64,000 nucleotides of DNA. Source: Planctomycetota bacterium (GTDB taxonomy: Bacteria; Planctomycetota; Phycisphaerae; Phycisphaerales; SM1A02). A program made the translations under genes and the position numbers. Positions 29,048 to 59,434 of the stretch are shown in pieces. The stretch spans positions 434,001-498,000 of the forward strand of contig JAIOPG010000002.1 in NCBI GenBank assembly GCA_021414025.1, given 5' to 3'. The notes under the pieces are model-generated. The model did not search any database, was not told the origin of the DNA, and was given only the letters and a program-made list of their open reading frames with translations. Position 1 is the stretch's first letter, and each line of letters begins with the position of its first letter.

Positions 29048-29182
29048 TGTCCCCTCCTATCGGTCAATTGCCGAGTTCTCTCATGCTCTGAAGCCTCTTG
29101 AGCCGATTCCATGCGGCGGTCATGGATGACCGGGCATGCCCGATTTGGTTTCGGGCACTGGGTGGCGGCGACAGGAGGTCGT

Positions 29183-29629
29183 ATGCAAGTTGAAACAACA
29201 CGCTTTGGCACCGTCGAAGTCGATGACTCGCGGCTTCTTCATTTTCCGGCCGGACTCCTTGGCTTTGGCCGGGTCCATCAATTCGCGCTGCTGCAACCCG
29301 ACGATCGCGGCGTCTTCTTCTGGTTGCAAAGCGTGGAAAGCCCCGATGTGGCGTTTGTCGTCACCGATCCGCGGCTCTGGTCCTCGGAGTATGCGGTGAC
29401 CATGCGCCGTGAGCAGAGCGAGGAGATCGGGCTGCGCGGGGAGGCGACGCCGGAGCTTCTCGTGATCGTGAACCGCCGCGAAAGCGGGATCACCGCCAAC
29501 ATGCAGGGGCCGCTGGTCATCAATCCCGCCAACCGAACCGGAATCCAAATCGTGCTCACCGACCGCCGCTGGACCACGCGGCATGAACTTGTGTCCGTGG
29601 CGCCCGCGGCTCGCGCCGTGTCCGCCTGA
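29183..29629 (+). CDS. fliW: Flagellar assembly factor FliW (CsrA antagonist)
   Basis: A 148-residue cytoplasmic protein. Pattern: MQVETTRFGTVEVDD, LLHFPAGLLGF, PDVAFVVTDPRL, LLVIVNRRES, NMQGPLVINPANRTGIQIVL; this is the full family core. FliW binds flagellin and CsrA, releasing flagellin mRNA translation. AGGAGG lies 5 nt before the ATG at 29183, so the longer frame to 29111 is rejected. csrA is 47 nt downstream, the usual order. No other flagellar gene is in the window. Confidence 0.93.
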   Translation: MQVETTRFGTVEVDDSRLLHFPAGLLGFGRVHQFALLQPDDRGVFFWLQSVESPDVAFVVTDPRLWSSEYAVTMRREQSEEIGLRGEATPELLVIVNRRESGITANMQGPLVINPANRTGIQIVLTDRRWTTRHELVSVAPAARAVSA

Positions 29630-29676
29630 ACGCGCCGACAAGCTTTGATCCTCCCTTCATGACGTCCACTTCCTGA

Positions 29677-29970
29677 ATGCTCGTCCTCTCCCGTCAAATC
29701 GATGAACGCATTGTCATCGGCGATGACATCGAGGTCGTCGTCGTCGACATTCGCGGCGACAAGGTCCGGCTGGGCATCGTGGCCCCGACCTCGATCTCGG
29801 TCCATCGCAAGGAGGTGTACGAGGCCATCCGCAAGGAGAATGAGCAGGCTTCCACCCTGCGCGGGGATGTGCCCATGATTCATGCTCCCAGCCACTCGCG
29901 CGAGGGCATCAAGCGGCTGGCCCACGGCCCCACACCGGACATCAAGAAGTTCAGGCGCGAAAGCGCCTGA
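29677..29970 (+). CDS. csrA: Carbon storage regulator CsrA, extended
   Basis: A 97-residue RNA-binding translational regulator. The core [20 protein letters not shown] ... [22 protein letters not shown] is complete, including the RNA-contacting VHRKEVY. Typical CsrA has 61-75 residues; here about 30 extra residues follow ([19 protein letters not shown]), basic and probably disordered. It partners with fliW upstream and is followed by a strong terminator. Confidence 0.94.
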
Positions 29971-30426: not shown

Positions 30427-30429
30427 GAA

Positions 30430-30669
30430 TCAATCCTTCCCGCCGGTCGCGGCCGGGCGTTTGGCGGTACGCAGTTTCCGTCCCAAAATTTTGGACATGG
30501 CGATCAGATCCGTCGCGCCGAGGTAGCGCGACTTGCGATAACTCTGCACGGTGGTGCCTCTTTTATTGCTCTTCAAGTGGCGGGAATTCGGCGAATGAAA
30601 CCGGACCTTGCCCGTGCCGGTCACCTTGATCCGCTTCAATAGTCCTTTGTGGCCTTTTTGCTTTTGCAT
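30430..30669 (-). CDS. rpmI: 50S ribosomal protein L35
   Basis: A 79-residue protein with QKGHKGLLKRIKVTGTGKV and SKILGRKLRTAKRP, the L35 pattern, with a short extra C-terminal tail (family about 65). The ATG at 30669 is chosen over the long frame. AAGGAAAG lies about 13 nt upstream within a 30-nt leader from the promoter at 30702-30729. The leader is too short for an obvious L20 autoregulatory structure. Confidence 0.95.
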   Translation of the reverse strand: MQKQKGHKGLLKRIKVTGTGKVRFHSPNSRHLKSNKRGTTVQSYRKSRYLGATDLIAMSKILGRKLRTAKRPAATGGKD

Positions 30670-30701
30670 GGGAGTTCGCCGCTTTCCTTGAGGGGTCGAA
30701 G

Positions 30702-30729
30702 AGTGTAACGAAATCGCCAATTGGGTCAA
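30702..30729 (-). promoter_or_regulatory. Sigma-70-type promoter of rpmI-rplT
   Basis: On the minus strand, TTGACC (30724-30729), a 16-nt spacer, then TACACT (30702-30707). This is one of the few near-consensus promoters here and puts the transcript start about 25-30 nt before rpmI. Confidence 0.6.
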
Positions 30730-30761
30730 GCGCAAGGAACCTGAAATTGGAAACGATTCAA

Positions 30762-30782
30762 AATGTAGGGGATTCGCCCCTA
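30762..30782 (-). terminator. Weak candidate terminator of the ECF sigma/anti-sigma transcript
   Basis: A 6-bp stem TAGGGG/CCCCTA with a 5-nt loop (30766-30782) is followed on the minus strand by CATTTTG, 120 nt past the anti-sigma stop. The T-tract is poor. The rest of 30670-30901 contains only the rpmI leader and promoter. Confidence 0.35.
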
Positions 30783-30901
30783 TTTGGCACGCCCGGGCTG
30801 TGGCGTGAGAAGCAGTGTGCATCGGTCCTCGTCCATTGGCCGCGACGTGGCCGGCTCGCGGGGATCCGCAGGCCCGTGCCCATCGAATCGAATCTCGCTC
30901 T

Positions 30902-57123: not shown

Positions 57124-57861
57124 TCAGTCGAATTCGTTGCCGCGAAACGTGCCGGCGAGGTAGGCGTCACGCACCATCGGGTCGTTGATGATGCTCTTGG
57201 GATCGCCCTCGCGGAGGTTCTTGCCTTCGTGGATGATGTAGGCCCGGTCGCAGATGCGCAGTGTCTGTTGGACGTTGTGGTCGGTGACCAGGATCGCGAT
57301 GCCCGTCGTGGCGAGCTTGCGGACCTCGGTCTGGAGCTCCTCGACGGTGTGGGGATCGACCGCGGCGAAGGGTTCGTCCAGAAGGATGAGCGCCGGCTGG
57401 GTCACCAGGGCCCGGGCGATCTCGAGCCGGCGGCGCTCGCCCCCGGAGCAGGTCCGGGCCTGCTCCTTCCGTTTGATCTGCAATCCGAACTGGGAGAGCA
57501 GCGCGTCGCAGCGCTCGGAACGCTCGCCCCGTGAAAGTCCGGTGATCGTCTCCAGGATTGCGTAGAGGTTGTCCTCGACGCTCAGCCGCTGAAACACGCT
57601 GGGCTCCTGGCTGAGGTAGCCCATCCCCAGCTTCGCGTGCCGCCACATGGGCAGAAAGGTCACCTCTTCCCCGCGGAATCGGACGGTTCCCTTCTCGGGG
57701 GTGATCATCCCCATGGTCATGCGGAAGCTGGTGGTCTTGCCCGCCCCGTTTCGGCCCAGCAGACCGACGATTTCGCCCTCCGAGACATCGAAGGAGACCT
57801 GATCCACCACGCGACGGTGTCCATAGGTTTTCTCCAGGTCGCGAACTTCAAGAAGCGGCAT
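57124..57861 (-). CDS. lptB: LPS export ABC transporter ATPase LptB
   Basis: A 245-residue cytoplasmic ATPase. Walker A LLGRNGAGKTTSF, Q-loop YLSQEPSVFQRLSVEDNLYAI, signature TCSGGERRRLEIARAL, Walker B LILLDEPFAAVDP and His-switch VTDHNVQQTL are intact, and the LptB-specific C-terminus is present. With the two permeases at 22.6-25.4 kb it would power LPS extraction. The ATG at 57861 has TACGAT (57869-57874) 7 nt upstream; the long frame to 58047 overlaps the divergent gene. Confidence 0.92.
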   Translation of the reverse strand: MPLLEVRDLEKTYGHRRVVDQVSFDVSEGEIVGLLGRNGAGKTTSFRMTMGMITPEKGTVRFRGEEVTFLPMWRHAKLGMGYLSQEPSVFQRLSVEDNLYAILETITGLSRGERSERCDALLSQFGLQIKRKEQARTCSGGERRRLEIARALVTQPALILLDEPFAAVDPHTVEELQTEVRKLATTGIAILVTDHNVQQTLRICDRAYIIHEGKNLREGDPKSIINDPMVRDAYLAGTFRGNEFD

Positions 57862-57901
57862 GACGCAGATCGTAGCGGCAGAATTCGCTACAGTGGTGTC
57901 C
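57862..57901. promoter_or_regulatory. Compact divergent leaderless promoters, lptB / PEGA lipoprotein
   Basis: Only 40 nt separate the two ATGs. TACGAT on the minus strand (57869-57874) and TACAGT on the plus strand (57889-57894) each lie 7 nt from their start codon. Confidence 0.55.
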
Positions 57902-58402
57902 ATGCGAGTGCTGGCCTGCCTCCTGGCGATGGGATTGATCGGCGGTTGCGTCCGTCGCACCATCGACATCACCAGCGAGCCGGAGGGCGCGCTGGTCTGG
58001 GTGAACGACCGCGAGGTGGGGCGCACACCCTGCTCCATCGAATTCACCCACTACGGGCGGTACGACGTGCGCCTTCGCCATGATGGATATGAGCCGATTT
58101 CAGGCTTCGGCGACGCCGACGCGCCGGTGTGGGATTTCGTCGGCGCCGATCTCATCGCCGAGATTATTCCGGGCCAGTTCACCAGCCGCGTGAAGTGGAA
58201 TTTCACCATGATTCCCACCGACAGCGACGAGGGCGCGGTGATGGACCGGGCGAAGCAGTTGCGGGCGAGAATCGTTCCGTCCGCCGAGAATGAGAAGGCC
58301 GAGGCCGAGGTAGTGCAGATGCAGAACAAGCCGGCGCCCGAACCCTCGAAATCGGCCCTTCCGGTCCCAAGTTCGGTGCTGCCCGCCGGCCAGAAGCCTT
58401 GA
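57902..58402 (+). CDS. PEGA-domain lipoprotein
   Basis: A 166-residue lipoprotein: MRVLACLLAMGLIGGC (Cys 16) then a PEGA domain (ITSEPEGALVWVNDREVGRTPCSIEFTHYGRYDVRLRHDGYEP), a short beta region and a disordered tail. PEGA domains occur in surface and S-layer-associated proteins. The start is fixed by the signal peptide and the TACAGT box. The partner is unknown. Confidence 0.8.
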   Translation: MRVLACLLAMGLIGGCVRRTIDITSEPEGALVWVNDREVGRTPCSIEFTHYGRYDVRLRHDGYEPISGFGDADAPVWDFVGADLIAEIIPGQFTSRVKWNFTMIPTDSDEGAVMDRAKQLRARIVPSAENEKAEAEVVQMQNKPAPEPSKSALPVPSSVLPAGQKP

Positions 58403-58546
58403 AAACAGGGGGGTCCGTGCTTGGGACTCCCTGTTCCGGTGGGATTCCCGGCGAATGCCGCGAATGACCGCATAAGTGTCGAAATTCAAGACCTTTGCAA
58501 TCGCCCGATCTTTTGAAAAGAAACTTGGGAAGTTTGGTTTTGACCA
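58403..58546 (+). other. Non-coding stretch with an imperfect hairpin
   Basis: A hairpin at 58404-58435 (AACAGGG ... CCCTGTT, one bulge, 7-nt loop) begins right after the PEGA gene stop and has no T-tract. It may protect or mark the mRNA 3' end. The rest, to 58546, shows no gene. Confidence 0.4.
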
Positions 58547-58574
58547 TTGATTCTGGGCAATTTGGGAAGATACT
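58547..58574 (+). promoter_or_regulatory. Promoter of the candidate small RNA
   Basis: TTGATT (58547-58552), a 16-nt spacer, GATACT (58569-58574). An alternative TTGACC at 58540-58545 is badly spaced for any -10. Confidence 0.45.
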
Positions 58575-58668
58575 GTGCATCCAGGAATTCATCATCATCG
58601 CGACCCGAAAGGGTTGCTTGAGCCGCCGTCTGTGCGTGTCGGAGCGACCAGACGGCGGTGTTCTTTTT
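58569..58668 (+). ncRNA. Candidate small RNA or terminated leader with its own promoter
   Basis: A promoter-like pair TTGATT (58547-58552), 16 nt, GATACT (58569-58574) predicts a start near 58581. The transcript would hold a stem closed by a GAAA tetraloop (58601-58606 / 58611-58616) and then a perfect 10-bp terminator stem (58623-58632 / 58649-58658) followed by TGTTCTTTTT, giving about 88 nt. No convincing ORF is inside. It may be an independent sRNA or an attenuator ahead of the PagL-like gene, although that gene has its own TAGCAT box. It matches no RNA class I know. Confidence 0.5.
58623..58668 (+). terminator. Intrinsic terminator of the candidate small RNA
   Basis: Perfect 10-bp stem CCGCCGTCTG/CAGACGGCGG enclosing a 16-nt loop that can itself pair (GTCG/CGAC), followed by TGTTCTTTTT. 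No T-tract is present on the opposite strand, so it acts only on the plus strand. Confidence 0.85.
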
Positions 58669-58783: not shown

Positions 58784-59434
58784 GTGCCCATTCCATACGC
58801 CGCGGCCGCTCTCTCCGCCCTGACCTCGTCGACTCCGGTGGCGATGGATGGCTCCACGTCCTTCGTGAACTCATCCCTGAGCGATTCCACGCTGCTGATT
58901 CCCATGGTCTCGGCGGAAGTGCAGACCGCCATGCCGCCCGCCAAGCCGCAGGAGACGGCCGTCGCGAAGTTCGGCGCCAAGAATTCCTGGCGCTGGGAAG
59001 TGGAGGGGAGCTGGATGAACGACTTCAGCAGCGCCAACCAGGTGCAGGGGGCGTGGTACGCGAGCTGGTTCCTGGTGGAAAATTTCAGCTTTGATTTCGG
59101 CGCCGAGGCGGCGTGGTTCTCGCAGCCCGGCGGCAACACCTGGGGAGCGGGACCCGCCGTCATGTTCCGCTGGCACTTCCTGGCTCGCGACACATGGAGC
59201 ATCTATGCCGACGGCGGATGCGGCCTGATGTTTTCCGGTGCCGACGTGCCCTCCAACGGCTCGACGGTGAATTTCACGCCGCGGCTCGGCGTGGGCGCCT
59301 CCTTTGAGGTGGCGGCGAACGCCCGGATTCTGACCGGAATTCGCTGGGCGCACATCTCCAACGCGAATTTCAGTTCCAACAACGACGGGCGCAACAGCAT
59401 TCAGTTGTATGCAGGATTGACGCTGCCTTTCTGA
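58784..59434 (+). CDS. PagL-like lipid A deacylase (outer-membrane barrel)
   Basis: A 216-residue protein. The first 50 residues are Ala/Ser/Thr-rich and may include a poor signal sequence. The rest is a small beta-barrel (SWRWEVEGSWMNDFSS, NFSFDFGAEAAWFSQPGGNTWGAGPAVMFRWHF) with the PagL active-site pattern GIRWAHISNANFSSNNDGRNSIQLYAGL (His and Ser of HxSN) and a C-terminal Phe. PagL removes the 3-O acyl chain of lipid A. TAGCAT (58772-58777) is 6 nt before GTG 58784. Confidence 0.75.
   Translation: MPIPYAAAALSALTSSTPVAMDGSTSFVNSSLSDSTLLIPMVSAEVQTAMPPAKPQETAVAKFGAKNSWRWEVEGSWMNDFSSANQVQGAWYASWFLVENFSFDFGAEAAWFSQPGGNTWGAGPAVMFRWHFLARDTWSIYADGGCGLMFSGADVPSNGSTVNFTPRLGVGASFEVAANARILTGIRWAHISNANFSSNNDGRNSIQLYAGLTLPF

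Follow-up and report, generated by a model that had tools for sequence, protein, structure and literature searches.

The window, by which we mean the whole 64,000-nucleotide stretch of DNA that was analysed, contains a gap between an ORF for a PEGA-domain protein (57860-58402, + strand) and an ORF for a PagL-like protein (58784-59434, + strand). All the elements listed in Table 1 are housed in this gap, on the + strand. The earlier note had proposed here a structured small RNA of ∼88 nt with its own promoter and terminator, and the parts that it named (a spaced promoter-like pair, a GAAA-capped stem, and a perfect 10-bp terminator stem with a T-tract) are all present; the proposed length, and an end near 58668, are in line with our alignments of relatives. 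The 5′ end at 58581 is a prediction, deduced from the position of the −10-like element. An alternative −35-like element, TTGACC, sits 23 nt from GATACT. Hairpin 2, which is the putative intrinsic terminator, is built from a 10-bp lower stem, a UG/AC mismatch, and a short upper stem.

Table 1. Positions in the window of the predicted RNA gene and its elements (R1 and R2, covariance models)
Feature	Position	Strand	Remarks
−35-like element TTGATT	58547-58552	+	Read in the sequence; alternative TTGACC at 58540-58545
−10-like element GATACT	58569-58574	+	16 nt after TTGATT; GATACT or TACTGT in many family members
Small RNA gene, ∼88 nt	58581-58668	+	Covariance matches of 90 bits (R1) and 78.9 bits (R2); fold z −3.99
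Hairpin 1, GCGACCC-GAAA-GGGTTGC	58600-58617	+	Arms 58600-58606 and 58611-58617 round GAAA, 7 pairs, one G-U; 7/7 pairs changed on both sides in 95 rows, 89.0% of cells paired
Linker between hairpins	58618-58622	+	Falls within a CCGURGC motif in other lineages; motif absent from the genus of the window
Hairpin 2, intrinsic terminator	58623-58658	+	Arms CCGCCGTCTG (58623-58632) and CAGACGGCGG (58649-58658), 10 perfect pairs, 16-nt loop between arms; 13/14 pairs changed on both sides, 91.9% of cells paired
Terminator-loop core UCGGAGC	58639-58645	+	Inside GUGUCGGAGC (58636-58645)
U-rich tail GTTCTTTTT	58660-58668	+	Read in the sequence and in the rows of relatives

Generic promoter and terminator scanners reported neither element at this locus, because the promoter matches the consensus at only 8 of 12 positions and the 16-nt loop exceeds the limit of the terminator scanner. 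The earlier note called this the only gap of >300 bp in the window. By crude ORF tiling, the window has three other gaps of >250 bp, one of which (30427-30901) is covered by an ORF that we take to resemble ribosomal protein L35, and the present gap is itself filled by doubtful ORFs. Short ORFs do overlap the RNA on both strands; the two that were searched have no Pfam match and the covarying stems described below favour an RNA, so that a coding reading was rejected. Directly after the PEGA ORF there is also a strong hairpin (AACAGGG...CCCTGTT, 58403-58436, + strand) that lacks a T-tract and is part of the structure predicted for the entire gap; it is possibly the 3′ end of the PEGA gene itself.

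The 88-nt stretch is predicted to fold with −41.1 kcal/mol (z −3.99), a stability equalled by none of 200 dinucleotide shuffles, and for a 97-nt stretch the values are z −3.31 and one of 200 shuffles. To follow the stems in relatives, we used alignments of increasing depth. The first, A1, was made with MAFFT, free of structure, and has 26 rows: 20 came from blastn matches and six (L043, L044, L047, L048, L050, and L058) were picked because, close to PagL-like genes, they fitted the loop motif with one mismatch at most. The structure counted on it is the RNAalifold result with inner terminator pairs added by hand and one of its pairs removed. In A1, 88.9% of cells are paired as compared to 83.4% after shuffling, and there are 12 double-changed pairs against a shuffled mean of 6.5; its weak point is that its number of further pair types was equalled by 21 of 500 shuffles. 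A covariance model, R1, was built from these 26 sequences, all from the family of the window (f1). Alignment A3 (70 rows) includes a reverse-strand match to a near-palindromic terminator (L022, +) that was retained in the second covariance model, R2. The final alignment, A4, is a chosen set of 95 sources fitted to a covariance model, from which we left out four sequences of the genus (L012, L016, L017, and L022), three near copies (L227, L229, and L290), and seven plain-terminator matches from outside the order.

In A4, both partners have changed in 20 of the 21 base pairs, and 90.9% of 1920 cells are paired, a level reached by none of 500 shuffles (mean 73.1%); these figures are to be read with the rows being related to one another and the models having been trained on part of the same, partly motif-chosen, sequences. 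Double-changed cells number 333, compared to a shuffled mean of 74.5, and sliding the structure along A4 as a control leaves only 29.7-47.5% of cells paired. Hairpin 1 goes from GCGACCC/GGGTTGC in the window to GCGGCC/GGCCGT and other versions in relatives, and in the upper half of the terminator stem both arms vary in step. The UG/AC mismatch is seen in most rows of the genus of the window, and many other rows have two base pairs at that place. The earlier note had named a lack of stem conservation in relatives as one half of what would speak against the RNA; covariation over 95 copies contradicts that half. The element is, to judge from this pattern of substitution, under selection as an RNA.

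The promoter pair of the window is weak taken alone, because its 8 of 12 consensus matches are equalled in 25% of shuffled upstream sequences. We counted promoters over the rows of A4, using 92 of the 95 (three with short flanks were dropped) and a far-upstream control that was available for 75. In 77 of 92 copies, a pair with at least 8 of 12 matches is found between 150 and 25 nt before hairpin 2, as compared to five of 75 controls and 25% of shuffles. For TTGAC, the counts are 68 of the 92 upstream intervals, four of 75 far controls, and 14% of shuffles. As far as sequence can tell, a sigma-70-like promoter is conserved as a unit with the terminator. Lineages differ in the spacing between the −10 element and hairpin 2, and thus the 5′ part of the RNA varies.

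The core of the terminator loop is almost invariant. UCGGAGC is present in 92 of 95 rows of A4 (8/8 in the genus, 47/47 in the rest of the family, 36/36 in the other families of the order, and 1/4 outside the order), so that none of the 91 copies belonging to the order lacks it; the longer GUGUCGGAGC is present in 46 of 95. The two letters that precede UCGGAGC vary, being UG in most rows of the family and GA, AA, or others elsewhere. Among model matches this constancy is partly selected, because six of the rows used to train R1 were picked by the motif and the models score it. An argument against pure selection is that R1, for which only sequences of family f1 had been used in training, pointed to copies in other families of the order, and that all ten of those that we read have UCGGAGC. 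The same seven letters were found in 20 of 20 further copies picked from the search of the order, and in 8 of 8 low-scoring ones. A second motif, CCGURGC, precedes hairpin 2 in 44 of 95 rows, with a different distribution (0/8 in the genus, 14/47 in the rest of the family, 26/36 in the other families of the order, and 4/4 outside it).

The RNA is widespread in the order. When a 141-bp stretch was used as a blastn query, 15 of the 16 genomes of the genus (its own included) matched at E 2.4e-8 or better, with weaker matches in several other genera. R1 matched 135 of 181 family genomes from 41 of 45 genera at E up to 0.01 (83 of 104 genomes of good quality), and R2 matched 199 of 400 sampled genomes of the order, with each of the six families f1-f6 represented; some of these may be plain terminators, since E is above 1e-6 for seven of the 135 in the family and the majority of matches were counted by score alone. 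No R1 match was found in the other 46 family genomes, including all 13 of genus g19 and all nine of g57, which would reflect either loss or strong divergence of the RNA. The g19 genomes are small (1.6-2.1 Mb). The genome of the window has one real copy, as assessed by reading its R2 matches: the next two matches and a third (E 0.28) lack UCGGAGC, the first two being plain terminators, and were rejected as second copies. A few relatives have two R1 matches. Taken together, 58581-58668 (+ strand) is very probably a real autonomous RNA gene.

Outside the order the picture is sparser. Over the class, R1 matched 45 of 298 genomes at E up to 0.01. Of these, 17 are not members of the order; three of the 17 (L111, L112, and L114) were read and none has the UCGGAGC loop. 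R2 matched 59 of 397 genomes of the class at E up to 0.001, and we read all 12 that are outside the order. Five have a GCCGUGGC stretch followed by a terminator, and seven are plain terminators. One of the five, G234 (L271), has UCGGAGC as well. Four RNA-like loci from other orders of the class (L272, L273, L276, and L290) display promoters close to the consensus (TTGACA with TATAAT or TATACT), the GCCGUGGC stretch, and a terminator that lacks UCGGAGC; they perhaps belong to the same RNA family with a different loop.

The earlier note recognised no known RNA class, and our searches agree, none of 4227 Rfam families reaching its gathering score in the window. In the Rfam search of the gap, no match had an E below 3. 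Among 20 relatives, the top match was to sX7 (RF02226), an sRNA of Xanthomonas, which weakly matched hairpin 2 and the sequence following it in L222, one of these relatives, in the same orientation as the RNA. With 25.5 bits against a gathering score of 55, an E of 0.15, and one of 20 relatives, it was taken as a chance match. There are no tRNA or tmRNA genes in the window according to ARAGORN, and no covariance match to 6S RNA. The small SRP RNA of bacteria is similar in being ∼100 nt long and single copy; that identity was rejected, the SRP RNA of this genome being a separate gene (G000:C7:116158-116254). In the open-access literature, covered by titles and the openings of abstracts, we found no report of the RNA. 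The Rhodopirellula-1 motif is a candidate from a 2010 survey, in Proteobacteria and Planctomycetes, to which the passage that lists it attaches no Rfam number (PMC2864571). An overlap of this motif with our RNA is conceivable. As an independent bacterial sRNA our RNA is of a familiar kind, and as a family it appears new.

It is very likely that the RNA has a regulatory role, because the promoter, the two hairpins, and the seven-letter loop are kept across the order. In size, in being an autonomous intergenic gene with its own promoter, and in having hairpins, an intrinsic terminator, and a U-tail, it resembles trans-acting bacterial sRNAs. It differs from these in general by occurring in a family without detectable Hfq and by having its constant site within the terminator loop. 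We consider it probable, with considerable room for doubt, that this is a single-copy, independently transcribed ncRNA gene of the Phycisphaerales (class Phycisphaerae) that acts in trans through the loop of its terminator, which is the most economical reading of its mechanism. In brief, (i) RNA polymerase would start near 58581 and stop near 58668, (ii) the short RNA would fold at once, (iii) the terminator hairpin would both end transcription and serve as the working part, and (iv) UCGGAGC would be offered as a contact site to a partner in trans. The linker motif CCGURGC may contribute in many other lineages. The partner would most likely be a set of mRNAs, contacted by short base pairing without Hfq, and less likely a protein. 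If so, the RNA would represent a case in which the loop of a terminator is a functional site. It would also be a concrete, testable entry into post-transcriptional control in these planctomycetes, at a time when few sRNAs are annotated outside well-studied groups. A 2022 review states that the genomes of bacteria other than Proteobacteria and the Terrabacteria group contain an average of only 1 to 2 sRNAs (PMC9029176). A bolder version is that Phycisphaerae as a whole class, which would be without recognisable Hfq, might share this as a core regulatory RNA that uses its terminator as an active domain, with the stem free and UCGGAGC fixed, and controls many genes or a global protein; we regard it as possible, although the balance is somewhat against it.

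As for the proteins such an RNA might need, Hfq (PF17209) was found in none of 181 family genomes by a search that, run as a control, matches 5 of 14 known genomes, and an Hfq-dependent scheme is thus unlikely. CsrA, on the other hand, is encoded in 177 of 181. It is conceivable, if rather unlikely, that the partner is a protein, and that UCGGAGC docks CsrA or another planctomycete RNA-binding protein that the RNA sequesters or assembles with. The loop is indeed constant while both flanking stem arms change, it contains GGA, and no complementary mRNA site was found by exact 10-mer search in four genomes. In these genomes, the 10-mer complementary to the loop has 23 sites, of which three are the RNA gene itself and 20 lie elsewhere, compared to 15 for a reversed control. 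The RNA of one of the four (G001) has a loop that differs from the 10-mer and is therefore absent from the 23. The sites revealed no common 5′ target. Across sites other than the RNA gene, just one pair of genomes can be aligned, and it does so within a coding region, presumably that of a threonine aldolase-like protein with the peptide LRSDTV.

The CsrA consensus has an A two bases before GGA, and RNAs that sequester CsrA carry several A-N-GGA motifs in hairpin loops. Although it shares with CsrB/RsmZ-type RNAs a GGA in a hairpin loop and the occurrence of CsrA in the same genomes, our RNA has a single conserved GGA, preceded by UC, so that U rather than A stands two bases before it. CsrA is, moreover, encoded in genomes of g19 and g57, the two genera for which the search for the RNA gave no match. 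As CsrA is nearly universal, and present in these RNA-negative genomes too, the joint occurrence of protein and RNA is uninformative. At 29111-29970 (+ strand) of the window, a CsrA gene comes directly after an ORF that we assume to be FliW-like. Genomes of genera g18, g41, and g6 have at most one, weaker-scoring CsrA match each.

We also surveyed the neighbours of the RNA at its locus in the window and at 20 further loci, 21 in all. In many members of the family, as in the window, the RNA is near genes encoding an ABC transporter, which we take to be LptB-like, a PEGA-domain protein, and a PagL-like protein. The PagL-like ORF of the window begins 115 nt past the U-tract, and 9 of the 21 loci have a PagL-like gene downstream in the same orientation. 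These observations could fit a cis-acting leader or attenuator of the PagL-like gene, i.e. a terminator-embedded switch, and aptamers of this type are known, such as the HMP-PP riboswitch (PMC6478431), which like our RNA has conserved bases inside a terminator hairpin. However, unlike that riboswitch, the RNA has no constant same-strand gene downstream. At eight of the 21 loci, the RNA is faced by the next gene with cluster support, which lies on the other strand; the remaining four are ambiguous with crude ORF calling. These eight are a cluster with a weak PfkB match (three loci), a CstA cluster (three loci, two in f2 and one in f4), and two genes of the usual neighbourhood turned round, the PagL-like gene in G031 and the PEGA gene in G135; for the PfkB-like and CstA clusters, Pfam identity is that of one member each. 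Since neighbours differ and switch strand, a cis leader is disfavoured as the general function, and we regard it as improbable. Over the 21 loci, the RNA is not the 5′ leader of one constant same-strand gene and shows no tie to any one adjacent gene, as would an independent gene acting in trans.

That the locus is only a strong terminator or structured DNA element with no RNA function is very improbable: weak model matches elsewhere, including two in the same genome and 7 of 12 outside the order, are just that, but in a plain terminator one would not expect the loop to stay fixed, or a promoter upstream and another covarying hairpin to be conserved along with it.

Finally, an origin from a phage or plasmid was rejected, as no match was found in viral contigs by pattern search or in plasmids by blastn. 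When named genomes were searched for the exact pattern, 45 contigs were obtained, of which 37 have planctomycete names, seven are unclassified, and one (L170, 3670 bases) is labelled Gammaproteobacteria. The exact RNA pattern of L170 is also present in L174, a bin of Planctomycetota that shares its sample name, and L170 is perhaps a mis-binned contig.
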